This document shows, in pieces, positions 844 to 61,510 of a stretch of DNA of 64,000 nucleotides. This DNA is from Cephalotus follicularis (taxonomy: Eukaryota; Streptophyta; Magnoliopsida; Oxalidales; Cephalotaceae): the NCBI GenBank assembly GCA_001972305.1, contig BDDD01002234.1:1-64000 (forward strand), given 5' to 3'. The position numbers and the translations under genes were made by a program. Numbering within the stretch: position 1 is the stretch's first letter; the number at the start of each line of letters is the position of its first letter. The notes under the pieces were generated by a model. It ran no database searches. It was not told where the DNA came from and was given only the letters and a program-made list of their open reading frames with translations.

Positions 844-980
844 GCCGACTGCCATAAGAAGGAAGTCGACTGGACCCTAAGGGAAGGAACCAGCCAGCTG
901 CTGGGAGGAACAGTCGACAAAAAATTGTCGGCAGAGACACCCGACTTCCAAGTTGGGGGAGTCAACTGCCAGGCGTCAGA
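844..980 (+). repeat. TCGA-core palindromic box array, promoter-proximal (G1 LTR)
   Basis: Imperfect copies of CAGTCGACTG have cores (GTCGAC or variant) at about 844, 865, 893, 913, 940, 961 and 975-981. Spacings are 21, 28, 20, 27 and 21. The array lies about 150 bp after the LTR start and 85 bp before the TATA-like site. Confidence 0.75.
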
Positions 981-1059
981 CTACATAACGTGCTGCCAAG
1001 CCCGGCATGACAGAAAGGGGAGTGTTTTTGGGTTTATGCGGGCAGAAGAGAGAGAGATG

Positions 1060-1200
1060 TTCTCTCCATAAAAACACACATTTTCCTCTCCAATCTTCAC
1101 CATTTCACTGAGAAAGAAAAGAGAAAATCACAGAGCAAAGAGAGAAAAGAGGTAGAAGGTTTGTAAGGGAGAGGGAGAGGAAGAAAGAGAGAGAGAAGTT
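1060..1200 (+). promoter_or_regulatory. Putative LTR promoter and purine-rich leader (G1)
   Basis: A TATA-like CCATAAAAAC at about 1066-1075 is followed by a long GA-rich run (about 1110-1200), as expected for the transcribed R/U5 leader of a plant LTR. The transcription start is inferred from this arrangement only. Confidence 0.5.
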
Positions 1201-1522
1201 GGGCTGTGTTTTTGGGAGCTCAAACCCGTGGCAAGAACCGAGTTCGTGGGAGCTGCTGGACGGATTTTGAGAGTGCAAAGGACATGGATTTGGACTTAAA
1301 GAGGTGGATTGCAATTCCTAACTTGGAGTTCTAAGGTAGGGGAAGTTTTATATTTGTGATTTAAGTTTAGTTATAATATTGTCCATAAGAGGAAATGCAT
1401 GCAATATGTTGTGTTATGAGCATGAATGTGATATTGTGGTGATAATGCTCTGTGTTGTAATGTATTATAGCGAGTTTTGGCTTTGTATTTTGCTACTGTT
1501 TTTGTACACTACCGTAGGACCA

Positions 1523-1829
1523 GATGACTGTCCAAAAGGGACAGCCGATTGCTCGAGATCGCCAGCCGATTGTTCTGTGTGAACAGCCGACTACTCAATG
1601 GATCCAACCGACTGCGCTTGGGAGCCAGTCGACTGTCCATGTATGTTACTGAGAAATGCCTGCAGAGGCTTGAGTAGCCAACTATTGTAGGCTAGCAGCC
1701 GACTGTTGGGTATGAACAGTCGACTGTCAAGAGTGACAGCCGACTGTCGAGTGAGGGCAACTGATTGCCAGTACGGGGCAGCTGACTGCCAAAGGGGGGA
1801 CAACCAACTGCCAGTAGAAACCAGCCGAC
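1523..1829 (+). repeat. TCGA-core palindromic box array, 21-bp phased (G1 LTR)
   Basis: Fourteen copies of the decamer CAGTCGACTG and variants (CAGCCGACTG, CAGCCGATTG, CAACTGATTG). Six-base core starts are 1523, 1544, 1565, 1586, 1607, 1628, 1677, 1698, 1719, 1739, 1760, 1781, 1803 and 1824. Steps are 21 bp with one 20, one 22 and one gap of 49. The spacer bases do not repeat. This is the clearest array in the window. Confidence 0.9.
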
Positions 1830-2971
1830 TGTCAAGCACTGTTTTGCATTGTGAGCATGTGCGTGCATCGTGAACTGTGATAAACTGATTTGTCCATTGT
1901 GATAGCTGATTGTGAACTGTTATATCTTTTTTTGGAAGTGCATACATGATTTTTACGAATCATTACTTTGCACGAAATGTATGTTTTGAGAAAATATATA
2001 TTTTTGAAAGATCGTGAAAATGGCTTCCAAAACACCGTGAACTGAATTTTGTAACATCGTGAACCGAGAACCGTGACATCATGAAAATGAGTTTGTTTTC
2101 AAGTATTTTGTTTTATAAATTACTTGGAAAAATGATTTGAGCATCGAGATTATTGTGATTGTGTTACGCTGTGATGCTGATTTTGATTGTGATTGTGACC
2201 GTACTAGTTGCGTGGCGGAGATGCCAGCAATGACTAGTGGTCGGGTTGACTCAGGGGTCAGGAGTTGGCTGGGTGACTCACTGACATGCCTGATTGAGTA
2301 TAGTGTTGTCCTTTGGGACGTGACTGATCGTTATTGTGGAGTGATGGGTCCTTAGAGACCTGAGAAATAGTTGGCCATTTGTGTTGTTGTGATATTGTGA
2401 ACCGTGTAGTGTGATGATGTGCTCTGGTGACATCGTGGACTGTGACGTTGTGGTCGTGATATATATATATATGTATGCATTGAGATATAGTATGTACTGC
2501 ATCATGATGCATTCGTGTCATGGCTTTGTTTATTGTTGACCCTAAGTTACACTTATGACTTTAGCCGAGTGAGGACAAAGGCTAACCCCCTACTGTTGTT
2601 AATTGATACAGCATTTTGGATATCGCCGGGCATGGTCGTATCGGATGTGATAGGATTTTATTTACTTAAACAAATGTAAAACAGTGTACTTGAGACATAT
2701 TGTACTTTGGATTTTTGTACTAATGTTTTAAATGTTGTTGATTGACTTTTGGATCACGCTCCGTTTGTGGGCTTTTTAACAATGACTTAATGATGATGTT
2801 GTGGGAATCATGTGGTATAGGATGCATGGTTCTGTTTACCTTTATCTTATTGTTAAAGGCTTTCGCAAATTATTGTTTAAAGCAAAGTTTTAAGTTTTAT
2901 TGCACTTCTCATAAGCTGAATTTATGTTAAATTGCCATGATATATGTTGTTAATACAAGCGGGGTGTGACA

Positions 2972-3978
2972 GTTGGCGACTTCTTCGTTTTCTTCATCGT
3001 CGGAGCTAGAATCATTGCTATCGCTCCAAGTTGCGATCATTGCCTTGTTTTTTAGATTGCCTTTCTTTTTCTTCAATTTCGGACAATCTGGCCTTATGTG
3101 ACCTGGTTTGTTACATTCATAACAAATAACTTCTTTCTCATCTTTCTCGTTTTTGCTTGTATCTCCTTTGTTGGATTGAAACTTCTTTAATTTCTTTTTG
3201 GTGAAGTTTTTCTTGTCCATGAGGATTTTTCTAATTCTTTTTGTAAGCAATGCCATTTCTTCATCACATTCCTCTTCTTTTGAAGCTTTCAAGCCTATCG
3301 TTTTCTTCTTTGGATCGTTCCTTGTTCGATCAATCATTCGAAGTTCGTGAGTCATCAATGACCCCAACAAGTCTTCTAATGAAAGAGTTGATAGATTCTT
3401 TGCCTCTTCAATAGCTGTAACTTTAGGTTCCCATGACTTTGGAAGGCACCTGAGAATCTTACTTACAAGCTCATGATTAGTATATACCTTTCCAAGGCCT
3501 TTTAGAGCATTTATGATATCATTGAATCTTGTATACGGCTAGATATATTTTCATTTTCAAGCATTGTAAATAGTTCATAATCATGAACAAGCCTATTAAT
3601 TTTTGTGTCTTTTACCTAGTTGGTTCCTTCATAGGTAACCATGAGTCTATCCCACATCTCTTTTGCTGAATCAAGAGATGAGACTCTATTGAATTCACTA
3701 GGACTTAACGCACAGAAAATTACATGCTTGACCGTAGCATTCAATTGAAGCAACTTATAGTCAAGTTCATTGTATTCACTATCAAGTTTACTAACTTTTT
3801 GACCGTTGACAATTTTCATAGGAATTTCACGACCATTTGTTATGATATTCCATACTTGATAATCTAGGGACTGAATAAAAATGGTTATCCTAGTTTTCCA
3901 ATAACTATAATTGTTTCCATCAAAACTATGGGGTTTGTTAATGGATTGACTAATGTTATCATTAAAGAAGGTTTCCAT
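2972..3978 (-). pseudogene. gag: Sirevirus-like gag (S1), interrupted
   Basis: The ATG is at 3978-3976, 39 bases inside the primer site. The N-terminal ~120 residues show FDGNNYSYWKTRI and a KEMWDRL...TYEGTN block, typical of the copia gag (UBN2/DUF4219-type) domain that forms the capsid. A TAG follows TYEGTN at about 3615, where relatives have Q (CAG to TAG). A frameshift near 3540 separates this from the second part, which carries LGSLMTHE, a lysine-rich stretch and one zinc knuckle CYECNKPGHIRPDC (CX2CX4HX4C) that binds RNA, followed by an acidic serine-rich run. The frame is then cut at 2971 by G1. Similar to the S2 gag on the other strand. Not functional. Confidence 0.85.
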
Positions 3979-4016
3979 GGATCAATCTATCTCAATTAAG
4001 ATTAATGATAAATATC

Positions 4017-4028
4017 GCTCTGATACCA
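4017..4028 (-). promoter_or_regulatory. Primer binding site of S1
   Basis: The minus strand reads TGGTATCAGAGC, the standard plant initiator-Met tRNA 3' complement, two bases inside the LTR end at 4031. Confidence 0.9.
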
Positions 4029-4030
4029 AA

Positions 4031-4986
4031 TGTAGGTCCACTAATAGCAACCTAGAGGGGGGGTGAATAAGTTATGCGTGAATAGGTTATGCGGAATAAA
4101 TAACCCTTTTTCGATTTTAAAGATTAAGACAAAAAACGATGAATAATCAAGCAATCAAATTACTCTAATAAGCACAAATAAATTGCAATAAGTAAAAGAG
4201 TAAGAGAATAGATATTGCAAACAATATATAGTGGTTCGGCCAAATATGCCTACGTCCACTCTTCCAAGCAGCACTTGAGGTTCCACTATGTTCGTAATCC
4301 CCCTATCACAATCCTAACCAAATCTGGATGTTTACAAGATCAAACATAACTTGGATTTTTACGAGCTAAATCCTAACTCGGGTTTTATAGCTAAATCATA
4401 ACTCTGATTCAGGCATTAACAACCTAGTGTTTACACAATTGATTTTCAAAAGGTGATTGTGTTTTCTGTAACCTCTAGAAAGCTTGGATGATGAAACAAT
4501 ATAGCTCAAAACAAATACTCCAAGTAAGAGTAACACAAATAAAGCTTAGACATAAATTTCAATGGAAAAGTAATATAGATTTTGATGCTGTTGATTTCTT
4601 GTTCTTTTCTTTTCTTTTTCCATTGAATCAGACCTCTATTTATAGTCTTCTTGTTATCATATAGCCGTTGGAATCATCAACGAGTCATTGGAATTATCTA
4701 TGGAAAGTTTTCTCCATTTCAGCATCTCCAAATCTTGCAGATTTTATGTGTCTTGCTGTCTTGGGCGTCGACGTTTACGCATGGCATTAACGTCTATGTC
4801 CTTCTTTGTTCACTCATTTGGTTCTTCGTGTTGACTCCATTTGCTACTGTCTGATTTTTGTATTATTTGCGTTAATGTGTACTAATGGCGTTGACACAAA
4901 TATCATTTGTGTTGACTCCATCTGCTTTATGCGTTAACGTCTAAGTCACTGTCTTATTTTTGCACCTTTTGGCATTGACGTCCGCC
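4031..4986 (-). repeat. S1 5' LTR, inner part
   Basis: The LTR end (minus strand ...ACA) is at 4031. A run of seven G at about 4056-4062 corresponds to the poly-C-rich tract near the Sirevirus LTR end. A TATA box, CTATAAATAG on the minus strand, is at 4636-4645. Upstream of it (4767-4980) lie TCGA/TTGA boxes with cores at 4767, 4786, 4830, 4871, 4890, 4911, 4933 and 4974. Steps are 19, 44, 41, 19, 21, 22 and 41, close to multiples of 21. The LTR continues beyond G2 at 14515. Confidence 0.8.
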
Positions 4987-6172
4987 TGTCACACCCTGTT
5001 CTCAATTTCCATTTATTAAATATGGTCATCAGTTAATCCAACATTTATAAAAATCCAATAAAATTAAAACTTTAGCGGAAGCCTTCTATAATACAGGATT
5101 ACATAAAGTATTCGCATGCACACGCAGCCCATAGTACGTGTTTAAGCTCATTACAATACAAGTTACATAATACATGTTGAGAACGTAAAATATAACAACG
5201 GAGTATGACTTATTACAATACACTCACTTAACAACCTTAGATAAGAACCCTCAAAGTGTAGCTTCAGCAGCTCATGGAACCCTTCACTTTAATCTGTAAT
5301 TGTAGGTATTAACCATTGTCCTCACTTGGCTAAGTAGGAAAATATGCATGACAATGAACATATGAATGTAATCATGCATGACAATTATATCATTAAACAC
5401 TAGGTATATATATATATATAAGCAACCATGCCAAATGGCTACAATCAATCACTTTATGAAGATTACCGCAAAAGGGTACAATCAATCACTACACTGGGTG
5501 AGTGTCATCTCGTGCTACCTCCTAGCTCAATCGATACACCACCTGACTACCACCATGCACTCCGATGTGATGGACTAGGTAAACACTTATTGCCGACACT
5601 TGGCGGGCAATGTAACATTCACTGTCTGCAAGGCAGATAACTTTGGTGAATAAGCTAGAGCCAACTCCTGGCACATCCGCTTATCGCCATAGTCAGTGAT
5701 ACACTTTATTCACCAAACCATCGACATCACTTCAATCACTGAAATTACATAAATATAATATGTAAAATAACACTGGTTTTCTTTTGAGAAAACGGTAAAC
5801 ACTTCAATAAAATCTCTTTTGAGAAACTATAAAACACTTGATAAGATCCCATTTGGGAAATGATAAAACACTTCACTAACTGTACCTCACTTGGAGGGAA
5901 CAACAAAACAGTTCACTAAGTTCCCTTTTGACGAAACAAAACAATACACTTAGTTTTCTTTTAAATGCAGTAATAGAAAACCTTTGATTATGCATATAGC
6001 ATCAACAATAAATCCCTTGAAATATCTTGATGGATATATAATATCTATAACAATATATCACTTTCAATAATGTGCAATCACTCAATCATTACGATCCTTG
6101 GATGATTCTAGGAATAAAACCAGCAAAATGCAAGCAACCATGTGCTCAGAATGTAAAACAGCCAATATTGGC

Positions 6173-6575
6173 GTCGACGTGTATATTAGGCGTCAACGTG
6201 TACTTATGCGTCAACGTGTATCTTAGGCGTCAACGTCTTTTATGTGTCAATATTTAACAAAGGGCGTTAACACATTAAGGAAGGACCTTAGGCATCAACG
6301 TTCAATATTGGCGTCGACCCATTAAGGTAGGAACCTTAGGCGTGAACATCATCCCTTTAGGCATTGATGTCCTGGTAACCAGTAGGTTTACGCGTCAACG
6401 TCATCCTTTTAGGCGTCAATGTAAATCATCCTACCAGTACGAAACACCAACTATTTCCCCTAAGGAGTTAACGTCAATCACTTAGCCATCGACGTAAATC
6501 ATCCTAACAGTACGAATCATCGACTATTTTCAGTTATGGCGTTAACGTCAATCACTTAGGCGTCGACGTAAATCA
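6173..6575 (-). repeat. TCGA/TCAA box array (G2 3' LTR, mid-LTR)
   Basis: Repeats of GGCGTCRACGT; cores at 6173, 6192, 6210, 6229, 6246, 6266, 6294, 6313, 6342, 6363, 6394, 6415 and further. Steps are mainly 17-21, with others at 28-31. Many cores are GTCAAC, so most CpG sites in the box have decayed to CpA on this strand. Confidence 0.75.
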
Positions 6576-7091
6576 AGCGCAGTAAGACATTCAATCAACA
6601 ATCACTTCAAGCAAGCATGGATTCAACACTTAGGGTCAACATGCAAGCATTCACAATTACCATAACACAATATACATGCCATATTTTCAAAAACATGTCA
6701 TAAACCCTACCTTTGATTCCATGTTAGGAATCGAAAGTCCACTTCTTTAAGCTTTAAACCAATCCTCATCTTCTCCAAGCTTCAAGATCCGATTCGATCA
6801 CTCCAACTCCAGGTTCTAAAATCTAGTTGTCAAGCTCCTTCTCTCAGTTCAACAATTGCGGGACAACATCTCCCTCACTCTATCCTTCTTTCAACGGTGT
6901 GAGGTTTGGAGAAGATGCGAGGAGTTTTAATGGAGTCTTCACCTCTCTCTCTCCTTCCTCACGGCATGGCAGGTTGACATGACCTCCATCAATCACTCTT
7001 CCCTCAATTTTCGTCAACGCAGAGCATGGGGGATGAGAAGTGTCATACTTTTTGTCCCTCACACATCTTCTGTCCTTGTTTAACTTGCTTT

Positions 7092-7306
7092 GCCGACAAT
7101 TTAGGCGTCACCGTCCACGCTGGGCGTCGACGCGTGGACTTCATGCCTTGGCATTAACAAGCTCCCCTTAGTCGCGTTAACGCCTATCCCCTTCAGTTCA
7201 CCAGCAATGGACGTTAACGTCCTCGCATGGCGTTAACACCTTAAGGCAAGAAGCCTTAAGAGCTTTTCAGTGTTACTTGGCGTCGACGTCAATGCATGGC
7301 ATTGAC
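7092..7306 (-). repeat. TCGA box array near the LTR start (G2 3' LTR)
   Basis: Cores at about 7092, 7107, 7126, 7153, 7176, 7213, 7232, 7282 and 7301, including the complete GCGTCGACGCG (7124-7134) and GCGTCGACGTC (7280-7290). Spacing is looser than in G1 or G3 (15-50), with 19-bp pairs recurring. Confidence 0.65.
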
Positions 7307-7475
7307 GCGCAAGTGCCCTGATTGCTTATGATTTCCAACACTTTGACTTATCTTCCTTCAATCCACAATAACAATAGCCAAATAAAAGGACACTTAGCAA
7401 ATAGATCTCAGATCAATGTATAATTTTATTCATGAATTATACATTATACATCTGATTGAAATTGTGGTCATTACA

Positions 7476-7490
7476 TTCCCCCCTCCTTAT
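7476..7490 (-). promoter_or_regulatory. Polypurine tract of G2
   Basis: The minus strand reads ATAAGGAGGGGGGAA directly before the 3' LTR; it primes plus-strand DNA synthesis in LTR elements. Confidence 0.85.
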
Positions 7491-7499
7491 AGAAAATTC

Positions 7500-9060
7500 G
7501 TCCTCGAATTTAGCTTTACATTACAAACAAGGGAGGAAATGTCTCTATCATATCAGCTTCACGCTCCCAAGTAGCTTCTTCAGCCTCGTCAAACTACCAC
7601 AATACCTTCACAATAGGAATAGTCTTATCCCTCAAAACTTTCCCCTTCTTGTCCAGAATCTGTACTGGCTCTTCTTCGTACGATAGGTAATCACTAATAA
7701 AACCAGGGTCAAAGCTCAATATATGAGAAGGGCCAGGTACGTATTTTCGTAGCATGGAAACATGGAATACATTGTGTACATTCGAAGTTGGGCGGCAGTT
7801 CTATCTGGTATGCAACTTCCCCAACTCTGGCCAGTATCTCATACGGTCCAATATACCGTGGAGCTGGCTTCTCTCTCATGCCAAACCTGCGTATACCTTT
7901 CAATGGCGAGATTCTCAAAAACACATGATCTCCCTTCTCAAACTCCAACTTCCTTCTCCTTTTGTCAGCATAGCTCTTATGCCGATCTTGTGCAGAAACC
8001 AATCTCTTCCTGATAATTTTGACCTTATCAGTAGTTTCTTGGACAAGATCCGGTCCCAACACTTGTTTTTCACCCACTTCATCCCAGCATATTTGTGTTC
8101 TACACTCCCTTCCATACAAGGCCTCATAAGGAGCCATTCCAATGCTAGAATTATATTTGTTGTTGTAAGAGAATTCAATAAGTGAAATATGATCCTCCCA
8201 ACTCCCAACAAAATCAAAAACACAAGCTCGGAGCATATCCTCAAGAGTCTGAATAGTGCACTCCGACTGTCCATCAGTCTGGGAGTGAAATGCAGTACTG
8301 AAACTCAAAGTTGTTCCCATCGCTGCTTGAAACTTCTTCCAAAACTTGGAAGTAAACCTTGCGTCACGGTCACAAACGAGGCTGACCGGCACTCCATGCC
8401 ACTTCATGGCACTCCATGCAACTTCACGATCTCCCTTATATATAATCGAGCCAACTTCTCGATGGAGTATATCATGTTCATCAGAAGAAAGTGAGCAGAC
8501 TTGGTGAGTCTGTCCACGGTAACCCACACTGCTTAATGTCTATCCTGTGACCTCGGTAGACCCGACACAAAGTCCATGGTCACATGCTCCCACTTCCACT
8601 CAACCACTGGTAAGGACTGTAACAATCCGACAGTCTCTGATGCTCAGCCTTCACTCTCTAACAAGTCAGACACTATGCCACATACTCGGCAATGTCTCTT
8701 TTCATACCGCTCCACCAGTAGTTCCTCTTCATGTCATGCCACATCTTAGAACTCCCTGGATGAACACTATAATGTGATTTATGAGCTTACTGCAGTAGCT
8801 CATTCCTTATGCCCTCATCATCCGGGACACTTACTCTCCCTCAGAACCTCAGTATGCCATCTGAATGTACGGAGAAATCAGAATCTAAATCTAGGTTCTC
8901 CCAAACATTCCACAATTCGGTATAGCTATACTAGGTAGTCAGAATATAATCCAGAAGTTTCGGTTGTGCTCTATGATTAGCCACAATAACCCCTTTGGAA
9001 ACCATGAACGGATTCCATCTCTGAAAATCCTCCAATAGCTTCCACTATGAAACCATCACA
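7500..9060 (-). pseudogene. pol: Integrase region of G2 pol
   Basis: Read 9060 to 7500. The N-terminal zinc-binding part is recognisable ([12 protein letters not shown]...; the CLTC block contains stops). The catalytic core follows: TMDFVSG near 8560, VCDRDARFTSKFW, then TDGQSECTIQTLEDML, giving the D, D, E residues. The longest open stretch (8527-7709) runs from the core into the C-terminal domain ([29 protein letters not shown]). The frame shifts near 7780, and the chromodomain-like end (VKVLW, EATWERE) lies in other frames to about 7510. Integrase inserts the cDNA into the genome; this copy is broken by many stops and shifts. Unlike G3, the core has not been deleted. Confidence 0.85.
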
Positions 9061-10452
9061 CCAGCAACCATCGCCTTGTGACTCAGCGCATCAGCAACTA
9101 CATTAGCCTTCCTTGCGTGGTATTGAATATTACAGTTGTAGTCATTAAAGAACTCCACCCACCTTCCCTGTCTCATGTTCAGTTCCTTCTGAGAGAATAA
9201 ATACTTTAAACTCTTATGGTCAGTAAATATCTCGAATTACGCACCATAGAGATAATGTAGTCATTTCTGTAAAGCAAACACTATGGCAGCCAACTCAAGA
9301 TCATGTATGGGATAATTCTCCTCATACGGTTTCAGTTTCCTTGATGCATATGCAATCACTCAACCACGTTTTATGAGAACACATCCCAAGCCCTTCCCAG
9401 AAGCATCACTATAAATAGAAAAACCCTCATTACCCTCAGGTAATGCCAGCACTGGAGCAAAAATCAATCGACTCTTCAACTCTTGTAAGCTTGCCTCGCA
9501 AGTGTCATCCCATACAAAACTCGACTCCTTCTTAGTCAAACGAGTCAATGGTACAGCAATCCTCGAGAACCCTTCGATAGTAGCTAGCCAATCCCAAGAA
9601 GCTACGAACTTCAGTAACATTCTTCGGTTGAGGCCAATCCACAATGCTCTCTATCTTTGAAGGATCTACAAATAATCCTTGTCCCGATACAATCTGACCA
9701 AGAAAAGTCACATGATCCAGCCGAAATTCACACTTACTGAATTTGGCGAACAACCTTTCCTTCCGTAGAGTCTGTGACACAATCCGTAGATGCTGCATGT
9801 GATCTTCAATACTCTTCGAATAAATCAGAATGTCGTCTAAGAAGACAACAACAAACTGATCAAGGTAACGTTGAAACACTATGTTCATTAGACACATAAA
9901 AGCTGCAGGGGCGTTTGTCAAACCAAACGGTAGTATCAGAAATTCATAGTGCCCATATATAGTTCAAAAAGCAGTTTTCTCAGTATCACCTTCATGGATC
10001 CTCAACTAATGATAACCAGTCCTCAAGTCAAGCTTAAATAACACAGTTGAGCCTTGCAATTGATCAAACAACTCCTCGATGCGTGGAAGAGGACACTTGT
10101 TCTTCACTGTCACTTGATTCAACAACCTATAGTCAATGCACAGCCGCATCAACCCATCCTTCTTTTTCACAAACAAGACCGGCACTCCCTATGGTGATAC
10201 ACTCGGTCTGATAAACCCCTTGTCAAGATAGTCTTGTAACTGCACCTTCAATTCCTTCAATTCAGCAAGAGCCATACGATATGGAGCCTTAGAAATAGGA
10301 GCCATTCCCGGTAGCAACTCAATGCTGAACTCCATATCTCTCTCTGGCGGTAATGAAACAAGATCATCTGGAAATACATCAGGAAAATCGTAAGCAACGG
10401 GAACCTGTTCCAGACTTGGCGTACCTTTCGTATGATCAATCACATACGCCAA
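9061..10452 (-). pseudogene. pol: Reverse transcriptase and RNase H region of G2 pol
   Basis: Read 10452 to 9061. RT opens with [11 protein letters not shown] and [10 protein letters not shown] (stop at 10189-10191), passes [13 protein letters not shown], and has the catalytic FLDDILIYS in the open stretch 9921-9532. RNase H follows with [12 protein letters not shown], then [13 protein letters not shown] and [13 protein letters not shown] in broken frames. These are the polymerase and RNA-degrading domains that make the cDNA. At least six stops or frameshifts break the region, several at codons where G3 has Q or W. G3 is the best guide for alignment. Confidence 0.85.
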
Positions 10453-10482
10453 ATAACCTTCACATCCTTTCTCGAGATATTT

Positions 10483-10900
10483 CTATGCTCGAGTATAAGA
10501 AATAACTGGAGTAGAAGTCATCTTCTCTCCCATGAACTTGAACACAACTCCATTCAATAGATGAAAGGTCACTTCCTTGTTGTAGCAATGAACACAAGAT
10601 TGATGGGCATAGAGCCAGTCCATTCCAAAGATAATATCAAAATCTTGGATCGGCAATACAATCAGAGCAGCGACTAACTGAACCCTAGCTATCGTGATCT
10701 CGCAATCCTTCACTATAGTATCAGCCATCAAACAACCACCAGTTGGAGTACTCACCTCCAGTACATAGGGCAAACAGTCAGTCACACAATGCAAATTGCA
10801 CAAAAATATGATGCAATAAATGAGTGTGTAGCGCCCAGATCAATTAAGACACGAGCTGATATACTAGATATGAAAATGGTACCTGACACAACAGAAGTAG
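10483..10900 (-). pseudogene. pol: Protease region of G2 pol
   Basis: The active-site block reads LIDLGATHSF near 10,830-10,860 (minus strand), with L where active aspartic proteases of this family usually have S or T (D-S/T-G). A stop follows about 15 residues later, then the typical downstream segment [10 protein letters not shown]...[14 protein letters not shown] (10803-10483). The retropepsin cuts the gag-pol polyprotein. G3 also departs from the motif at the same residue (DPG). Confidence 0.8.
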
Positions 10901-10989
10901 ATTATGGCACATCATCCTTAGATAAGGTATAGACCCTACCTTTCACAATCCCTTTTCCGGTATCCCTTCGCGAAGGACCAACCGCACCA

Positions 10990-11959
10990 CTACCACTAGC
11001 TCTAGCACCCCTTTGCATTTGCTCTTTCACTATCGGACAATCCTTCAGTATATTCTCTTTGATAACCCAGCATGATTATTACTTCCCTGCCCTTGTGAAT
11101 AAGCGAATGTCAATTGAGAATTACGAGAACTTTCCATCTTTCTCTCATTCGCATCTGCCTCCAGAATCCTTGCTTTCCCTATAACATCTACAAAAGAAGT
11201 CAACTATAGTACCACCAGCTTAGACCTAATGTCTTGCCTCAAACCCTTCAAGAATATCCTTATCTTCCTTGATTCTCCCTCCACTAGGTAAGGCATGTGT
11301 CTAGCCAGCTCAATGAATCTGGTCTGATATTGAGCTAGCATCATGTCTCATTGACGTAGCTCCAACAATTCAGTCTCCCTCTGATCACGCTCCATCTGTG
11401 GGACATAAGCGTCACTGAATTCAGACTAAAATCTGTCCCAAGTTTTGCCCAGATCAAGAGATTCCCACTTCGCTTCAGTCATCTCCCACCAACGGGTAGC
11501 CTCTCCCCATAGTCGATACACTGCAAAGTTTAGCTTTTGCTTATCGATACACTCAAGAGCAACGAAGATTTTTGTCATGTCCTTCATCCACTGTTCTGCT
11601 ATGGTGGCATCAAGTTCACCCTTAAATATCGGAGGATTCTACCTCATGAACCTCTCCAGATCTCTCCCAAATACACCAGCTTGATTAACTTCAGGGGCAT
11701 TCCGATACCCTTGATTCACTTCATACATTTGTCGCAACTGTTCCACATTCGCCGCATTAGCCTGTATCTGCTGTTTAAAAAGATCGGTCATACGGTCAAA
11801 AATACTCCTTTCATCGTGCACTGGTGGAACATTTACTCCTTCATTCATTTGTGGAATATTCCCTCCTTCATTCATTTGCGAAAAAATTTCGTGCACTGGC
11901 GGGGCATTTATCCCTTCTTCCACTCTTTGCTTTCCCCGCCTACCCCTTCGATGATCCAT
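10990..11959 (-). pseudogene. gag: gag of G2, zinc knuckles missing
   Basis: The ATG is at 11959-11957, chosen because the same MDxRRGRRG start is found in G3. The first ~107 codons are open (to 11639) and carry the repeated QMNEG..N.PPVH motif and a DLFKQQ helix. The capsid part continues through 11,640-11,100 with stops (FKGELDATIAEQW, WGEATRWWE, TWDRF, ELLELRQ, QYQTRFIELA). Where G3 has two CX2CX4HX4C knuckles, G2 passes from QGQGSNNHAG almost straight to CPIVKEQ, so about 60-70 codons with the RNA-binding knuckles are gone. Gag forms the particle; this copy cannot. Confidence 0.8.
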
Positions 11960-12051
11960 TTTTGTCCCTATAAGGAATGAGCTAATCATCAGGAACAATT
12001 CATCAAATCACCGAGGATAATATCCTAGCGATAGCTTATAATTTAATCTAA

Positions 12052-12063
12052 GCTCTGAAACCA
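12052..12063 (-). promoter_or_regulatory. Primer binding site of G2
   Basis: The minus strand reads TGGTTTCAGAGC, one mismatch from the Met-tRNA site TGGTATCAGAGC, four bases inside the 5' LTR. Confidence 0.85.
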
Positions 12064-12067
12064 TGTC

Positions 12068-14514
12068 TGTCATACCCCATTCTCAATTTCAATTTATTAA
12101 ACATGGTTATTAGTTAATCCAGCATTTATAAAAATACAATAAAATTAAAACTTTAGTGGAAGCCTTCTATAATACTGGATTACATAAAGTATTCGCATGC
12201 ACATGCAGCCCATACTACGTGTTTAAGCTCACTACAATACAAGTTACATAATACATGTTGAGAATGTAAAATATAACAATAGAGTATGACTTATTACAAT
12301 ACACTCACTTAACAACCTTAGATAAGAAGCCTCCAAGTGTAGCTTCAGCAGCTCGTGGAACCCTTCACTTCAATCTGTAATTGTAGGTATTAGCCGTTGT
12401 CCTCATTTGGCTAAGTAGGAAAACATGCATGACAATGAACATATGAATATATATATATATATATATGAGACCATGCCAAATGGCTATAATCAATGATTTT
12501 ATCAAGAATACCGCACAAGGGTAAAATCAATCACTACATTGGGTGGGTGTCATCTTGTGCTACCTCCTAGCACAATCGATGCACCACCTGACTACCACCA
12601 TGCACTCTGATGTTATAGACTAGGTAAACACTTATTGTTGGCACTTGGCGGGCAATGTAACACTCACTGTCTGTGAGGCAGATAAATTTGGTGAATAAGC
12701 TAGAGCCAACTCCTAGCACATCTGCTCACCGCCGTAGTCAGTGATACACTCCGTTCACTAAACCATCAGCATCACTTCAATCACTGAAATTACATATATA
12801 TAATATGTAAAATAACACTGGTTTTCTTTTGAGAAAACGGTAAACACTTCAATAAAATCTCTTTTGAGAAACTATAAAACACTTGATAAGATCCCATTTG
12901 GGAAACGGTAAAACACTTCACTAACTGTACCTCACTTGGAGGGAACAACAAAACACTTGACTAAGTTCCCTTTTGAGGAAACAAAACAATACACTTAGTT
13001 TTCTTTTAAAAGCCGTAATAGAAAACCTTTGATTATGCATATAGCATCAATAATAAATCCCTTGAAATCTCTTGATAGATATATAATATCTATAACAATA
13101 TATCACTTTCAATAACGTGGAATCACTCAATCATTACAATCATTGGATGATTCTAGGAATCAAACCAGCAAAATACAAGCAACCATATGCTCCTAATGTA
13201 AAACAATCACTATTGGCGTCGACATGTATATTAGGCGTCGACATGTACTTATGCGTCAACGTGTATCTTAGGCGTCAACATCATTTACGCGTCAATATTC
13301 AACAATGGGCGTTAACGCATTAAGGAAGGACCTTAGGCGTCAACGTTCGATATTGGCATCGACGCATTAAGGTAGGAACCTTAGGCGTCAACGTCGTCCC
13401 TTTAGGCGTTGATGTCCTGGAAACCAGTAGGTTTACGCATCAACGTCATCCTTTTAGGCGTCAATGTAAATCATCCTAACAGTACGAAACACCAACTGTT
13501 TCCACTAAGGTGTTAATGTCAATCACTTAGGCATCGACGTAAATCATCCTAACAGTACTAATCATCAACTATTTCCAGTTATGGCGTTAACGTCAATCAC
13601 TCAGGTGTCAACGTAAATCAAACGCAGTAAGACATTCAATCAACAATCACTTCAAGCAAGCATGGATTCAATACTTAGGATCAACATGCAAGCATTCAGA
13701 ATCACCATAACACAATATACATGCCATATTTTCAAAAACATGTCATAAACCCTTCCTATGATTCCACGTTAGGAATCGAAAGTCCACTTCTTTAAGCTTT
13801 AAACCGATCCTCAGCTTCTCCAAGCTTCAAGATCCGATTCGATCACTCTAACTCCAGGTTATAATCTCTGGTTCTCAAGCTCTCGGTTCAACAATAGCGG
13901 GACAACATCTCCCCCACTCTCTCCTTCTTTCAATGGTGTAAGGTTTGGAGAAGATGCGTGGCGTTTTAATGGAGTCTTCACCTCTCTCTGTCCTTCCTCA
14001 CAGCATGGCAGGTCGACATGACCTCCATTAATCACTCTTCCCTCACTTTTCGTTAGTGCAGAGCATTAGGGATGAGAAGTGTCATACTTTTTGTCTCTCA
14101 CGCGTCTTCTGTCCTTGTTTAACTCGCTCTGCTAACAATTTAGGCGTCAACGTCAACGCTGGGCGTCGACACGTTGACTTCATGCCTTGGCATTAACAAG
14201 CTCCCCTTAGTCGTGTTGACGCCTATCCCCTTCAGTTCACCAGCAATGGACGTTAACGTCCTTGCATGGTGTCAACGCCTTATGGCAAGAAGCCTTAAGG
14301 GCGTTTCAGTGTTACTTAGCGTCGACGTCAATGCTTGGAGTTAACGCGCAAGTGCCCTAATTCATTGTGATTTCCAAAACTTTAACTCATCTTCCTTCAA
14401 TCCACAATAAAAATAGCCAAATAAAAGGACACTTAGCAAATAGATCTCAGATCAATGTATAATTTTATTCATGAATTATACATTATACATCTAATTGAAA
14501 TTGCGGTCATTACA
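12068..14514 (-). repeat. 5' LTR of G2 (2,447 bp)
   Basis: Nearly the same sequence as 4987-7475, starting TGTCATACCCC and ending GGTCATTACA. Box arrays lie at 13216-13620 and 14140-14345. Differences from the 3' LTR are mostly transitions, many within box CpGs. Confidence 0.9.
13216..13620 (-). repeat. TCGA/TCAA box array (G2 5' LTR, mid-LTR)
   Basis: Same array as 6173-6575 in the other LTR, with separate decay at individual boxes: for example GGCGTCGACATG at 13236 where the other LTR has GGCGTCAACGTG at 6190. Confidence 0.75.
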
Positions 14515-14769
14515 CCACCAATATTACAAAACCCAGCACGTTGACGAGAATAATCTACACATTGACGAAAATCATATTCGAAAACCGAGAACACATGCTT
14601 AAGCCAGGCACGTTGACGCCAATGGTCTAGGCATTGACGCCAATAGGTATGTTCTGCATATTTTGCTTCTTTTTCTCTTGCAACTTTATTTGTTTGTTTC
14701 ATTTAAACAAACCTTCACATCAACAAACAAGTTAGGTATTTTGTTATCATGAAAACCAAGATTGTATCA
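14515..14769 (-). repeat. S1 5' LTR, outer part
   Basis: Resumes after the CCACC copy of the G2 target site. Boxes with GTTGAC/ATTGAC cores at 14540, 14561, 14611 and 14632 (steps 21, 50, 21) continue the S1 array. The LTR start (minus strand TGATACAATCTTGGTTTTC) is placed at 14769, by resemblance to the S2 LTR start and because pol of T1 begins next. Confidence 0.65.
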
Positions 14770-15962
14770 TAGAAGCTAACAGTTTTGATATGCTGAGAAA
14801 GCATCAGTTGAAGCTCAACCCTATCAAGTGTGCCTTCAAGGCCACCTTGGGAAAATTCCTTGGTTATATGGTGACGCAAAGAGGAATTGAGATGAATGTC
14901 TAGAAGATCAAGGCGGTTGTTGAGATGAAGGCCACCATCAAATGTGAAAGAAACCCAAAGTCTTAATGGTCATTTGGAGGCATTAAGTCGATTCATTTCG
15001 AATTCATTGGATCGTTGTTTGCCAGTCTTTAAGAAACACAAGGTAGGAAAGGTCTTTGAATAAACACCAGATTGTCAGAAGGAGTCGAGGAATTGAAATC
15101 GTACCTAATGTCAGCCCTGTTGATCATGAAGCTTAACCAAGGGGAAGTTCTGCTACTACACCTGTCAGCCTCGAACCCCGTCGCCAGCTCAGCGCTTGTC
15201 CAAGAAGAAGAGAAAGTACAGAAGCCTGTGTATTTTGTAAGCTAAGTATTGGGCAAGCATGAGGCCCGATATCCACCAATCTAAAAATTAGCTTTTGCTT
15301 TGGTAGTTTCAACAAGAAAATTGAGACCCTATTTTCAAGCCCACATTGTCAATGTAATGGCAAACCAACCCCTCTTGTGAGTCTGTCAAATGTCGGATAC
15401 CTTGGGAAGATTGGTCAAATGGGAGATCAAACTGGGAGAATTCAATATTCACTGCAAACCCCGACCAGTGATGAAATCACCAGTCATCGCAGACTTTCTG
15501 GTGAAGTGTACTACTCTGATCAAAATAGAAGAGGAAGAAGAGTTGATCCTGGAGACCACTTCGGGATATACCCTATATGTGGATGGATCCTAGTGCCAGC
15601 AAGTGGTCGAGGCAAGGTTAATATTGATAAGCTAAGATGGATGTACCTTGGAGTATGCCCTGATATTTGAATTTACAGCAATGAACAATGAGACAGAGTA
15701 AGAATCCCTGATTTCAGGTCTCAAACTAGTGAAGCACTTACAAGTGCAAAGCTTTGTGGCATACACAGACTCTCAATTGGTGGCAAATCAGATTAATGGG
15801 TCCTTTGAAGCCAAAGATCCGATCATGGCATCCTACCTAGAGGAAGTTAACCTACTCAGAGAGAGGTTCAAAATTTTGAAGTAATACAGATCAAGAGGGC
15901 AAAGAATAGAAAGGCAGATGCGCTTTTCAAGTTGGCAACCTTGGATGATTGGAAGGACAGCC
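14770..15962 (+). pseudogene. pol: T1: Tat/Ogre-like Ty3/gypsy RT-RNase H remnant, left part
   Basis: Degenerate coding sequence. Near 14800-14890 it reads RKHQLKLNPIKCAF, GKFLGYMVTQRGIE: the end of an RT palm of Tat type. RNase H-like sequence follows (ASNPVASSALVQEEE, PVYF) with a second RNase H-like block near 15690-15860 (TAMNNETE, YTDSQLVANQINGSFEAKDPIMASYLEEV). Two RNase H domains are characteristic of the Tat branch. Many stops are present. Ends at DWKDS, where G3 enters; the frame resumes at 25486. It is the host of both S1 and G3, so probably the oldest element in this part of the window. Confidence 0.75.
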
Positions 15963-22137: not shown

Positions 22138-22138
22138 G

Positions 22139-48432: not shown

Positions 48433-49119
48433 GATGTGTAAACGAAATCCACAATATAAATGAAGTCCACAATGTAAATGAGAATCCCAAATGTAAAAGA
48501 AATCAGGAAAAGGGATCTCGATATTCGACAAATGGCTCCACAATATAACATGAGTCAGGAAAGTAAACAAGATTATCAAAAGAGATCCACAATTGTTACC
48601 ATAGACATTAACAAGGCTCCATAATTGAAACTCGGATGTCAACGATAAAAGTTTCATTGAACAAACTCAAGCTCAAGACTTTCCAAGTACAATAAAATCA
48701 GAGTATATAAAATATCAATAATCACAGATATGATCGAGAATATAAACTCATGCTGGGTAAAACCAATAAGTGACAGAAATGAAAGACCATCATGGCACCA
48801 TGAAAGAACGCTCAAGCTCATCAAATGCAATAACGCAAGAATCCATGAAACAATCTCAATGATTAAGCCAATACTCTACAATACGATAGACTCACAATGA
48901 AATAACCGGTGACCCAACAAAGAAGTCCACTGAACAAATATCATCTCAAGACAATAATCATGTATATGAGAGTCACAATAATATCAAGTATCTGGATATC
49001 AAAGCTTAAAGATACGATCATAACTCAAATGAGAGTATCAATATCAAGAATGTAATATGTGCCCAAAGAATCATAAACATATAAGAGGATGCTGGTACCA
49101 ATCATGTCACTGCCTCATA

Positions 49120-49252
49120 TCCCTGCCAAATCACATGGCGTCATATCATATCCCCGCCAAATCACATGGCGTCTTATCATACCCCATCGCCAAATCACAT
49201 GGCGTCATATCATACCCCCGCCAAATCACATGGCGTCATATCATAACCGCTG
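49120..49252. repeat. 31-bp tandem repeat, four copies
   Basis: The core GCCAAATCACATGGCGTC starts at 49125, 49156, 49189 and 49220 (steps 31, 33, 31), linked by ATATCATACCCC-like sequence. Confidence 0.9.
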
Positions 49253-57287: not shown

Positions 57288-58434
57288 TGTAATGACCGGA
57301 AATTATGTTCAAGTTATTGTTTATGGAAATAGGTTTGCTTTAGAGTATTGGGTTGTATGCCATGGAGTAAGAAGTTTTGCATTGTAGGATGTTTACGCGT
57401 CACGTGTGCGTTACATGGTGATGAAAGCGTCGACTATCTAATGTAAAAGCATCGACGGTTAGTCTTCAGTATATACAAAGCGTTGACTAATTTCGTACCC
57501 TAAAACACACCAAATTTATTAACTAAAGCGTCGATGGTTTGTTATAGTGTAATGGAGAAAGCGGCGATGCTTCTAAGCATTATTTTCTTTGTAAAATGCG
57601 TTAACCGGTGACGCTTAGTGGGTAAAGCGGCAGCGCTTTGAGGCTAAAGCGGCGACGCTTTACGCTTAACCTCTGACGCTTTAAAAAAAAACTTTGAAAT
57701 GCCGGCGTTTTTTGTTGTTTTGTATATAAATTATATTATTAAAGGATGAGTGTCGATAAACGGGTGAAGGAATTGGGATATTTTACCGAGCGTTATTATT
57801 TTAAGGTAAGAACATGACACTTGTCGTTAAACTGGGGGTGAAGAAAAGAATCACGTGGGCGGCATCAATGTAGGCGGCTTGACGTGGTGACTGGCGAGTG
57901 CAAAGAAGTCTGTTTTTACTCCCCTATAAATACTTGGGTGGTAAAACGTCTTCTGCCAAGAATTTACTGAGAGAGAGAAGAAAGAGAGAAAGAAGGAGAG
58001 AAAGAAGAAGAGAGAAGTGGAGAGAAGAGAAAAGAAAGAGAATTTTGCTAAAATTTCGGTGTAGAAATTACTTCAGTGTAGAAAAGGAGAGAAGGTGATT
58101 AAAGCAATGTAAGGATTATTTTTACTCACTTTTCCAAAGTATTTTACTCTATATTTTTATGCCAAATTACTTTATGTTATTTTTGGATATTTTTATGCCA
58201 AAGTAATTTAAGTTATTTCTGGAAATTATGCAGAAATTGTTATGTTTTACGTATTTCGAATTTCTTGATGAAATTCTATGTTTAAAATTATTGTTCATAT
58301 TCTGCTGTTATTCTCACTGAAAATTATAATTTTATCATTTTAATATTATTGAAATATCTGTTATAATTTTATTGTTCTTTCAGTTTTTACAAATGTTGTA
58401 CGAATTTATTTTTACAAATACCTTGAGCTGATCA
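57288..58434 (+). repeat. L10: LTR-like sequence inserted in C3 gag
   Basis: Starts TGTAATGACCGG inside gag. Boxes at 57429, 57451, 57482, 57530 and 57563 and more near 57600-57670 (GCGACGCTTT, GGCAGCGC). A TATA box CTATAAATA at 57924-57932 is followed by a strong GA-rich leader (57965-58045). The A/T-rich rest runs to 58434, where L11 begins. Its far end is not visible. Confidence 0.65.
57924..57932 (+). promoter_or_regulatory. TATA box of L10
   Basis: CTATAAATA, about 40 bp before the GA-rich leader. Confidence 0.7.
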
Positions 58435-58876
58435 TGTAACGCTTGGGTTTTTTCACAAAATGTAATATTACAATTTTAATGTAATCTTATTATGGAATTA
58501 ATGAGAATAGTACAATTCCCGACTTTGATAATGTTTTCCCTTTTATAACGTCGAGTTTTGAAAGAGGAATGATAAGGAAATGTTTAAGGCATTGCGCATT
58601 GAAGCCGCAATTATGTTGCCCAAAACGGTAAATAAAGCCTTTTTATAATGCGCGCTTGTAAGGCCCAGTATTGGCATTATTATTACGATTATTTTAGTGG
58701 CGGCAGGATTAATTAATATCGCAATTCACGAAATAAACGAGACCCAGTCCTTAATGTTTTGTTGGTAAATACTAATAAAGAAAGGGGAAAATCAAATAAC
58801 GGGAGGAAGAAAGAGAGACGGGGGCATAATACGCCCGTGCAAGAAAGAAAGAGATAGAGGCGAGAGAGAGCGCGGG
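58435..58876 (+). repeat. L11: 5' piece of a G1-family LTR
   Basis: TGTAACGCTTGGG... with AATATTACAATTTTAATGTAA and AATTAATGAGAA, matching the first ~80 bases of the G1 LTR (698-775). Continues to a purine-rich stretch (58800-58875) and is then replaced by G12. Preceded by GATCA, the likely target site in L10. Confidence 0.65.
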
Positions 58877-60197
58877 TGCCGCGCCCCGGTTTAAGTTAAA
58901 CACACATAAGGTGGTAAAGGAAATTAACATTAAGATTCAGCTCATGCAAAACCATAAAACCTAAACTTTTCAAATAGAATATCAGTTGCGGAAGCATTAA
59001 AACTCATAAGCTGAAAACACGTAATGTGCGTCCCATACTGCACGCTACTCAATACAAATCTGTCATTGTTAAAAGCCCACAAAACGGAGCATGATCGCAA
59101 TACATTAACCCAAAAATAAAGCACAAAAAATAACCATCAGTACAGTACATCAGTATCCTTAAAACAAAACAGCTTATTACAACCCGGAAGAACATAAAGC
59201 CAACAACAACTAAGATAAGGCTTGTTCTTCGTCCATGCTAGTCCAACACCGGTCCACTGCATCAATCTGTAAAGTAGGAGTTAGCCTTTGTCCTCACTCG
59301 GCTAAGTCATAAGGGTACTTTGGGATCAACATTACATGCATGTCATGAAATGTATGCATAGATGATGCAGTTCAGTAGAAAATACCAGTTTATACGTATA
59401 TCTGAAAATATATATAGTTTAGCAGTACAGTAAAATATCAGTAAGGACATATATATGAAAATATATGTATGCAATAACAGTACAGTAGTAACCCGGCCAG
59501 GGCTGCATCAACAGGCACAGTAATGTCCGAGAAGAACTAGCAGGCAGTACAGTAAGTCCACAAAGGGACCACAAACAGGCAGGCAGTATGTGCAACGCCG
59601 CCAACTCCTGGCCCCACGTTACACTCCCACTTCGGTCCCTTCTCAAGGCAACCAAGCAAGACAATAGTGCAGTACAGTGAGTTACCCAGCCAACTCCTGG
59701 CTCCTAGGTCAACCCTACCACTAGCCAACGCAGGCAGCCTCCGCTATGCAACTAGTGGCTCAAGCACAAACACATAAAATTGACAGAGCAAACAGTCAAT
59801 AGTCACATTAAACAGTGCAACAAACAGTATAGTAATGATCGTTAGATCAACAACAGGCAGTTTATTTCCAAATATTTTCAAAGGTGATAACATTTGAAAT
59901 ATGTATTTCTAATAGATAGAAAATACTTTAAACAGTTCAGTAGTGGAAATCGCTTTCCAAATATGTTCGAAAATATAACAATATTCATTTTATATTTTCG
60001 TACTCAACATAGTAGTTTTCAACTCGTATATGCACTTCTAATATAACAATACTTAGAAATCATAATCAAGTTATAACCAGTCAATAACAAGCAGTGAACA
60101 GTACATATGCAATCATACAAATGCTTAAATGCATCCTAACAGGAATCGGGATCGTTTCGTATCGTTAAATAAGAAAACTCCCAAACAGTTCAAGAAG

Positions 60198-60460
60198 GCG
60201 TCGATGTCTATTATTTGGCGTCGATGTCTTTGTCCCTCAGCATTGACGTTCAAGTCCTTAGTGTCAGCGCTTTCCACTGTTTGAAGACACCGATGTCCAT
60301 CTTTATACGCATCGATGCTCAAGGTATGGAACCTTAAACGTCAGCGTATTGCTTAAGGCGTCGACGCGTTAGGGTAGGAACCTTAGGCGTCGATGTACAA
60401 TACGTCCATATCCAAGCAGATAGCCCAAAGGCGTCGATGTTCTTCAAAGACATCGATGTG
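60198..60460 (-). repeat. GCGTCGATGT box array (G12 LTR, mid-LTR)
   Basis: Cores at 60200, 60220, 60242, 60263, 60289, 60311, 60340, 60360, 60389, 60433 and 60452. Steps are 20, 22, 21, 26, 22, 29, 20, 29, 44, 19. The cores mix GTCGAT, ATTGAC, ATCGAT, GTCAGC and GTCGAC. Confidence 0.85.
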
Positions 60461-61351
60461 TTTCAAGCACCAGTCGTCTTCTTCCTCACGACATGACAAA
60501 CAGTGACCATCAAAATCCACATACATGCCAGACAACATGTAATAAAGGCAGGAAACTAACATGCAGATACATATCATATACTCAACATAACATGGCATTG
60601 ACTCAGTGATCCAAAAACAGTTCAAAAATCATGTAATCTATGCACAAAAACTATAGTCCAGGCATGAACATTAATCTCAAGAATACGATTATGGCTTCCC
60701 ATACCTTTTTGTTCCAAGTTAGGAACTAGAAAGTCCACCCCTTTTAGTATCCAGACGGTCACTTTGAACTCCCAGCTGTCCAGCTCCAAGCTTCCACTTG
60801 CTCAACAATGGTGGTTTGAGCTTTCCTTCTCTCACTGGTTTCTCTATAAACTCACAGGTTTCACACCATTTTCTTTTCACAAGCGTTTAGCAAGAGAGAG
60901 GTGAAGGAGAAGGTGTTTTTAAGCTGATGGTTCCCTTCTCTTTCTTCCTCTCTGCCTTGAATGCACTCTCACACTCACACCCCTATTCTCTTCCCTTTCC
61001 GTTTTTTGTTCTTTTCTTCCTCTGCGTTTTTGCAGGTCACATGTGTCTAGGACACTTCCCAACCTTGCATGCAATAGCTGAGCTCGTTTCTCAGCCCTTT
61101 GTCTCAACTCTAAAGTCAGGCAATGGCATACTCCCTCTAACCATCAACTGCATGCACACATGGCCCTCCCTTCTTTTCACTTGTTGCATGCTCACACATG
61201 TCTCACACTTGCCCTTACAACTTCAGTCATGCAAGTTAGGGAGACATATGCATGCTCAACACATCCCATTTCGTGCTTCAAGGCGCCTGCAAAAGGCCCT
61301 AAATCGTTTCCCTTTGTACGTTATTCTATCAACAGAATAACGTGTCTGACA

Positions 61352-61510
61352 TTCGATGTTACGCATCGACGTCTTCTTTAGACATCGACATCCTTCCCCT
61401 TTTTACACGAGGGCGTCGATGTTCTCGCCTGCATCAACGTGCATGTGCATGCAGTTACGTGCGCCTCTTTGTTTCAAAGGCATCGATGCGTTCAAAAGGG
61501 CGTCGACGCG
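61352..61510 (-). repeat. TCGA box array near the LTR start (G12 LTR)
   Basis: Cores at 61352, 61365, 61384, 61415, 61433, 61482 and 61502; steps 13, 19, 31, 18, 49, 20. Confidence 0.7.

Follow-up and report, generated by a model that had tools for sequence, protein, structure and literature searches.

Arrays of regularly spaced ten-base boxes in the long terminal repeats of Ty3/gypsy and Ty1/copia retrotransposons of Cephalotus follicularis

The 64,000-nucleotide stretch of Cephalotus follicularis DNA analysed here (the window) is the start of contig 2234 (BDDD01002234.1) in an assembly of 1.577 Gb, and it is mostly nested retrotransposon DNA. Long terminal repeats (LTRs) in the window carry arrays of ten-base boxes, most often set about two turns of the DNA helix apart. 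Presence of the arrays is common to the Ty3/gypsy and Ty1/copia superfamilies, with thinner evidence for copia. A first-pass annotation had placed them in LTRs of both superfamilies, and shuffles, a comparison of LTR with interior density and reversed-pattern controls confirmed them; the arrays lie at the places it named. Its claim that the box arms are family-specific is supported as well, and we distinguish CAG, GCG, ACA (ACATCGA) and ACG types.

Gypsy element B spans 15963-25485 on the plus strand and has 2.5-kb LTRs that are 96% identical. Its 5' LTR (15963-18518) holds box cluster I at 16122-16282 and cluster II at 17198-17334, the latter made of NNGTCGACGC boxes at spacings of 21, 42, 22, 21 and 21 bp, with TATATATGTA near 17696; the 3' LTR (22950-25485) holds cluster I at 23130-23269 and cluster II at 24164-24300. 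The primer binding site (PBS) at 18522-18533 (plus strand), TGGTATCAGAGC, is of the initiator tRNA-Met type. The interior (18874-22903, plus strand), where boxes are at background level, contains a gag/protease/reverse transcriptase (RT) open reading frame (ORF) followed by an integrase C-terminal ORF. The element shows the Ty3/gypsy order protease-RT-integrase, with RVP_2 and RVT_1 at 18874-20766 and an SH3_Tf2-1 integrase domain plus a chromodomain-like stretch at 22097-22903; the matches to chromodomain PF00385 are weak (E 2.5e-4 and 1.6e-4; 21.4 and 21.9 bits, under the 25.1 cut-off). We take the Tekay/Del lineage as a presumed candidate for its affiliation.

Gypsy element A lies on the minus strand (4986-14514), and its boxes are of the ACG type in element sense, with TTGA, TCGA and TCAA cores. 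Its 3' LTR (4986-7475) has cluster II boxes at 6171-6569 and cluster I at about 7120-7310, its 5' LTR (12067-14514) has cluster II at 13216-13614 and cluster I at 14144-14334, and the two LTRs are 90.8% identical over 2490 columns. Two solo gypsy LTRs, both on the minus strand, sit inside a plus-strand copia element. In solo LTR 1 (34643-37225; cluster II at 35825-35961, cluster I at 36924-37064), all six cluster II boxes are identical to those of element B, and each spacer of 11-12 bases shows 0 to 3 differences. Solo LTR 2 (39221-42107) shares three homologous segments with the LTR of element B, but at each of the two cluster positions (41856-41935 and 40569-40680) its boxes are of the CAG type.

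The copia element around the solo LTRs is a Sirevirus by its 5' LTR/PBS junction, which reads exactly CA-ATTGG-TATCAGAGC at 34320-34335 on the plus strand (PBS at 34324), a signature taken from PMC2829016. Close to this junction, a stretch of roughly 20 C (read as G on the minus strand) ends near 34286 and is a candidate for the polyC-rich integrase signal of Sireviruses near the LTR 3' end. The 5' LTR contains an ACATCGA-type array of 19 permissive boxes (33114-33710, plus strand), which compares with at least eight copies per element, upstream of a TATA box, in the arrays typical of Sireviruses. Downstream of the copia RT ORFs comes another ACATCGA-type array (11 permissive boxes, 44625-44882, plus strand); additional repeated motifs have been reported from this part of Sireviruses, ahead of env (PMC2829016). 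A further copia element on the minus strand, with gag at 2927-3981 and a PBS near 4017-4028, has an LTR apparently split by element A. In this putative LTR we found five permissive GCG-type boxes (4765-4981, minus strand), mostly TTGA read on the plus strand, of which only two are left at an 8/10 match, and four boxes immediately outside element A (14538-14640, minus strand; spacings 21, 51 and 21 bp) are putatively the rest of it. Across 4030-15962, element A appears to interrupt one box array, leaving its parts at 4765-4981 and 14538-14640.

Within the window, TCGA occurred 256 times against 169.2 expected (standard deviation 11.2; 100 dinucleotide shuffles), and perfect NNNTCGANNN palindromes numbered 25 against 3.0 (maximum 7 in 100 shuffles). 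When the window was shuffled in 500-bp blocks, an excess of TCGA pairs was seen at 19-22 bp (38 vs 1.9, maximum 7), at 41-44 bp (21 vs 1.9) and at 61-66 bp (26 vs 2.9). The boxes are concentrated in LTRs: at a match of at least 9/10, their density was 2.77/kb in six gypsy LTRs and 2.15/kb in the pieces taken as copia LTR, compared with 0.09/kb in gypsy interiors, 0 in copia interiors and 0.098/kb in the dimer shuffle, and it was 1.16/kb in the unannotated remainder of the window.

The same boxes were recovered from an independent sample (L005-L024) to which 20 other contigs of the assembly contributed 10 kb each (10.6 kb of the 200 kb masked), and in which CAGTCGACTG (18 vs 0.09 expected) and GCGTCGACGC (6 vs 0.01) were the top over-represented palindromic decamers, AT repeats aside. 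A 6-mer scan of the sample without the TCGA assumption placed CGTCGA, GTCGAC, AGTCGA and AGCCGA among the top words recurring at 19-22 bp. AAACGA and AACGAT outrank the boxes at this distance (36 and 33 pairs) and apparently represent a separate short tandem repeat. TCGA itself was at expectation in the sample (519 vs 544), so that a general TCGA enrichment was rejected and the enrichment is confined to the boxes. Over the whole assembly, we compared forward counts, taken at any gap within the stated range, with those of the same pair pattern read backwards. The counts were 57839 vs 743 for GTCGACN{0,30}GTCGACG, 51384 vs 913 for GTCGACN{31,61}GTCGACG, 48687 vs 166 for the CAG pairs CAGTCGACTGN{0,30}CAGTCGACTG and 54808 vs 239 for ACATCGAYN{4,34}ACATCGAY, an excess of paired boxes of 56- to 293-fold. 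Together with the shuffles, these controls led us to reject random clustering of TCGA.

In two box types, GTCGAC and ACATCGA, the boxes are spaced in step with the helix. For GTCGAC boxes, 150 distances at distinct places were taken on contig C1 from the first places listed of the assembly-wide matches, repeated copies of the same LTRs included. They fall into classes, with 55 at 19-23 bp, 13 at 29-33, 32 at 40-45, 26 at 48-54 and 17 at 61-66, against 2 at 24-28, 0 at 34-39, 2 at 46-47, 0 at 55-60 and 1 at 67; the remaining 2 are at 12 bp, and four of the 150 lie between classes. The class means of 20.6, 30.6, 42.7, 51.2 and 63.1 bp fit a step of 10.56 bp, and the 78 listed distances above 36 bp alone gave a best period of 10.6. 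Thinning these to one per 20-kb block left 44 distances with the same classes (19 at 40-45, 2 at 46-47, 14 at 48-54, 0 at 55-60, 8 at 61-66 and 1 at 67). Among 100 listed rows for ACATCGA boxes, again including repeated LTR copies, 69 were at 19-22 bp, 8 at 29-32, 19 at 40-42 and 4 at 13, while 23-28 and 33-39 were empty. A best period of 10.1 (bootstrap 9.8-10.4) came from a permissive box set in the random sample, a strength that none of 300 jittered sets equalled. The window by itself showed no significant phasing past 24 bp, since 166 of 300 jittered controls reached as much.

The CAG boxes are laid out differently: all 69 listed distances on contig C1 are either 19-22 bp (57) or 27-28 bp (12), meaning pairs two turns apart with 2.6 turns separating the pairs. 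The 17-18 bp between CAG pairs often include a ATGCGTGTTGTG-like motif, matched at 10 or more of 12 positions on either strand in five of the 11 spacers checked on C1, the motif having been derived from the same spacers in which it was counted; it is perhaps a second binding site. Overall, the distance classes are 19-22, 27-33, 40-45, 48-54 and 61-66 bp. The two-turn spacing described in the first-pass annotation thus holds as the main peak, but distances of three, four, five and six turns also occur, and the 27-28 bp of the CAG type is not a whole number of turns.

We then asked how well the boxes are kept relative to the DNA around them, using the boxes of one LTR as anchor and scoring the agreement of the other LTRs in its group (L050, L060 and L063 excluded). 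Boxes were more conserved than spacers for every anchor in all three gypsy types: CAG (box 0.920, spacer 0.681, rest 0.683; 12/12 anchors), GCG (0.934, 0.806 and 0.764; 5/5) and ACG (0.786, 0.697 and 0.738; 4/4). This bears out the earlier observation that the spacers are poorly conserved. In pooled array boxes, the core columns carried about 1-2 bits and the mid-spacer about 0-0.1, box columns being ascertained, and the 2-3 bases flanking the boxes carried some information. CpG retention was higher in boxes than outside them (GCG 0.86 vs 0.57, CAG 0.71 vs 0.55, ACG 0.61 vs 0.46), in box columns that had been picked by match. Neither a missing 20-22 bp peak nor spacers as conserved as boxes, the two outcomes named beforehand as speaking against the idea, was found in the window, the sample, the listed places or the 24 gypsy LTRs described below.

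The box conservation rests on comparisons within families, because boxes of elements B and A align no better than the rest of their LTRs (0.50 vs 0.54; 0.51 vs 0.54 for A boxes). Between solo LTR 1 and A, boxes were somewhat better aligned (0.65 vs 0.53; A boxes 0.55 vs 0.53). The two LTRs of a single element did not keep their boxes clearly better than the rest, either in B (0.967 vs 0.971 or 0.981 vs 0.970, depending on the defining LTR) or in A (0.889 vs 0.928 or 0.886 vs 0.928). Conservation of the spacing itself is seen in the CAG type only. In pairwise LTR alignments, 291 of 357 CAG box distances were unchanged, 49 had shifted by 1 bp, 14 by +19/+20 and 3 by +42 to +49, the +20 cases possibly being register slips onto the next box. 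Changes of 2-18 bp were absent (0/357), compared with 355 of 2829 control pairs, each made of two ten-base stretches at a distance of 21 bp, taken from other parts of these LTRs.

To the four gypsy LTRs of the window we added 20 gypsy-type LTR starts, hand-picked from the first 100 of 8097 places (three of them for a variant start), and boxes were present in all 20. Assigned by eye from box lists, the 24 LTRs comprise 13 of CAG type, six of GCG type (NNGTCGACGC) and five of ACG type, which has the right arm GACGC and a TTGA core in about half of its boxes. At an 8/10 match the LTRs hold 4 to 29 boxes, and L047 (7), L064 (6) and L050 and L063 (4 each) fall short of eight copies. The boxes form two clusters, one around LTR positions 150-450 and the other, some 1 kb away, around 900-1540; L050 and L063 have cluster I only. 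In all 22 LTRs that have both clusters, the two are of the same type, isolated single off-type matches aside.

Box types differ between LTRs that are otherwise related: box-free segments are homologous between the CAG-type solo LTR 2 and the GCG-type B. Over the first 110 bp, the CAG-type L057 is 94% identical to the GCG-type B5 and L061. A tree of these 110 bp, with many weak nodes, does not show the GCG type as one clade, whereas an unrooted tree built from the middle segment of 17 LTRs unites it in a single clade (support 0.91) among CAG types. This disagreement, together with the near-identical heads bearing different box types, suggests that LTR heads seem to have been recombined between element lineages while both clusters stayed matched. 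Element B and solo LTR 2, despite their different box types, share a conserved TATA-like region, and the clusters lie upstream of it; such a region downstream of the boxes was seen in gypsy LTRs only.

The common TCGA core of the first-pass annotation was not upheld, as TTGA stands in every box of the arrays of L005 and L006 (7978-8094), and both TCGA and CCGA cores occur within CAG arrays. Its palindrome for a dimeric protein was also too narrow a description, given this variable core and the direction of the boxes. In the GCG type the constant part is mainly the right arm (NNGTCGACGC in element sense), and adjacent asymmetric boxes share their orientation in 71 of 104 GCG, 20 of 28 ACA and 18 of 25 CAG pairs, compared with 24 of 48 mixed pairs. 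Two of the three gypsy box types, GCG and ACG, are directional, and strict dimer symmetry is therefore not required. CpG decay alone as the origin of the arm families was rejected as a full explanation, because transversions are needed to get from CAG to GCG and because the L005 and L006 arrays show TTGA throughout on one strand. DREB/CBF factors with GTCGAC, WRKY factors with TTGAC, ARF and bZIP were considered, and we propose no factor.

Taken together, the helical spacing, the conserved boxes, the drifting spacers and the position upstream of the TATA-like region fit regulatory strips in the U3 part of the LTR that would be bound by a sequence-specific protein, a reading to which we give about two chances in three. 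Protein binding, cooperation and enhancer function are here what we infer from sequence. In this reading, successive boxes would be filled by a single DNA-binding protein with sequence specificity, or by a few related ones, and neighbouring molecules would need defined rotational positions on the helix to cooperate. Selection during retrotransposition would then preserve boxes and spacing and let the spacer letters drift. The array would most likely act on transcription of the element, starting at the conserved TATA-like region that lies some hundreds of bp further downstream, and the boxes of an LTR would switch together in both clusters, tracking change in the protein that recognises them. 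Repeated U3 boxes that activate LTR transcription are known from enhancer repeats of the Tnt1/Tto1 type, in few copies and in a single family.

Several observations weigh against such protein-bound strips. Placement on one face of the helix is not general, since the 27-28 bp between CAG pairs amounts to 2.6 turns. The arrays are not universal either, because seven of 13 PBS-like sites (at most one mismatch; window and fetched loci) have only 0 to 5 boxes upstream, among them the sites at window 54169 (minus strand) and 54623 with zero; the other six have at least 10 boxes within 2.6 kb upstream, the count of 14 at the minus-strand copia site taking in boxes of the nested element A. In the test of CAG spacing, neither set is independent, because the pairs compared have common ancestry and the control windows overlap one another. 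The spacing of the ACG type appears unconstrained, with 6 of 39 distances changed by 2-3 bp against 27 of 380 controls changed by at least 2 bp, and the GCG set is too small (24 pairs, with only +1 changes). Finally, when the RNA folding of eight arrays was compared with shuffles, five reached z-scores of -3.7 to -4.9 and three -1.3 to -2.0.

The folding result fits a different explanation, in which the U3 transcript folds on its self-complementary boxes and the arrays serve as hot spots of small interfering RNA or in some other RNA function, as do the palindromic LTR regions of maize Sireviruses that are small-RNA hot spots (PMC5311732, PMC10760457). We consider this rather unlikely as the explanation of the arrays, because pairing of RNA needs no 10.5-bp phasing and in entire LTR families the boxes are directional and only imperfect palindromes (NNGTCGACGC, ACGTTGACGC). 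As any palindromic box folds somewhat, the z-scores are no test of function, and a hairpin role may coexist with a protein strip. Co-evolution with a fast-evolving anti-silencing protein or repressor, comparable to VANC, would re-tune the boxes in each LTR lineage. It would suit the occurrence of one box type across two clusters about 1 kb apart and the near-identical LTR heads with different types, and the target arrays of VANC are likewise dense, of one orientation and variable between related elements (PMC5735166). However, no candidate protein turned up, and no search aimed at one was made; no helical spacing is given for VANC targets in the parts of that paper considered; and CAG pairs also lie beside one Sirevirus junction, judged by position only, which would argue against an element-specific protein. 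We regard this explanation, too, as improbable.

Two other explanations appear far less probable. A plain minisatellite, arising by slippage of a 21-bp unit without selection, would account for the identical neighbouring units in some arrays (C1:1678358-1678406) and for 11-bp spacers being somewhat more alike within arrays (0.436) than between them (0.320). Within arrays, however, identical 7-bp spacer cores were found in only one of 64 comparisons, with boxes 0.848 alike, so spacers are not conserved as boxes are. In addition, the 29-33 and 48-54 bp distances are not multiples of 21, and two separate clusters share one type. Since CAG box spacing is kept where other spacing in the same LTRs drifts, and boxes are more conserved than spacers, the arrays are not a plain minisatellite, and we consider this origin very unlikely. 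Nucleosome positioning, in which GC-rich boxes and AT-rich spacers would rotate the DNA on the histone octamer, draws on the period near 10 bp of the random sample. It has hardly any likelihood in our view: specific arm sequences are conserved beyond composition, and the 10.56 bp from the listed C1 places is closer to free DNA. A U3 strip read by a protein thus stays our preferred interpretation.

Short repeated motifs are already known from Sireviruses, in which they are palindromic, mostly CpG-rich, present in 8-32 copies per element, clustered in the upper LTR half upstream of the TATA box, and variable by element (Bousios et al. 2010, PMC2829016). The statement that a TCGA core was not known proved wrong, as Table 3 of that paper includes CGGTCGACCG (Vitis) and ACAATCGATTGT (Tnd-1), and two of the 13 published motifs have a TCGA centre. 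The boxes described here resemble these motifs in being near-palindromic, mostly CpG-rich and variable between elements and, in gypsy LTRs, in lying upstream of a TATA-like region; unlike them, they occur in Ty3/gypsy LTRs, show helical spacing and direction, and are of one type per LTR. The CGG-CCG core of the Sirevirus motifs, to which Tnd-1 is the one published exception (PMC2829016), was not found here, where GCG, CAG or ACA arms surround TCGA, TTGA or CCGA. The motif is described as Sirevirus-specific and absent from classic Ty1/copia elements, and in the parts considered PMC2829016 mentions no gypsy elements and gives no spacing rule. Boxes in all 20 fetched gypsy-type LTRs thus lie outside a Sirevirus host, and the copia half of our observations extends the published phenomenon, because the array-bearing copia element is a Sirevirus. 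In the window, the Sirevirus LTR has ACATCGA boxes and the putative minus-strand copia LTR has TTGA boxes. Sirevirus junctions were counted 3357 times; of the four exact ones on contig C1, a single one has listed CAG or GTCGAC pairs, namely CAG pairs on its LTR side, 0.8-1.0 kb away as judged by position.

Palindrome-rich regions in maize Sirevirus LTRs are highly variable (PMC5311732, PMC10760457), and our arrays share with them fast evolution within LTR cis-regions; the maize clusters are tied to small RNAs, whereas the arrays here are marked by DNA-helix spacing. The VANC targets of Arabidopsis VANDAL elements (PMC5735166) are a further parallel, as dense arrays of tandem motifs (~9 bp there) in one orientation that change together and differ between related elements. 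VANDALs, in contrast, are DNA transposons with a known element-encoded protein, and none has been identified here. Among the matches listed in the open-licence PMC literature, we found no report of such boxes in gypsy LTRs, nor of helical spacing of LTR boxes. As far as searched, the new features relative to that literature are the strips in Ty3/gypsy LTRs, their whole-turn spacing, the directional boxes and the single type across two distant clusters.

The window contains further arrays. Two are of CAG type on the plus strand, one at 842-968 (5 boxes; spacings 21, 48, 27 and 21 bp) and one at 1542-1831 (10 boxes with CCGA and TCGA cores; five neighbour gaps of 21 bp). Arrays without a stated strand comprise three short GCG-type arrays within 45304-46599 (45304-45451, 45573-45702 and 46472-46599), a GCG-type array at 57427-57537 (spacings 22, 31 and 48 bp), and, next to a gypsy integrase ORF (61748-62983), GCG/ACA-type arrays within 60198-61616 (60198-60459 and 61275-61616). 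Separately, nested CpG-rich minisatellites with 69-bp and 15/26-bp units (ATCGTATCGTTATGG) occupy 27289-27717, and a tandem repeat of a 31-bp unit (4.2 copies, 92% matches) lies at 49115-49245.

These observations address the open question of what activates plant LTR retrotransposons and why U3 evolves fast. They offer a readable grammar of box, rotational spacing and one type per LTR, spelled out by tens of thousands of box pairs across two superfamilies of a single genome, and they extend Sirevirus-like repeated motifs beyond Sireviruses. One probe set, with two boxes at 21 bp against two at 26 bp, could capture the protein, and box-type switches become datable on LTR pairs. As a tentative and still doubtful extension, a single diversifying DNA-binding factor or factor family may control a large share of the Ty3/gypsy and Ty1/copia elements, the phased strip having converged or been exchanged between them and its boxes being replaced as a set. 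If so, a cross-superfamily arms race or a shared regulon would be written in the box arms and their phased spacing.

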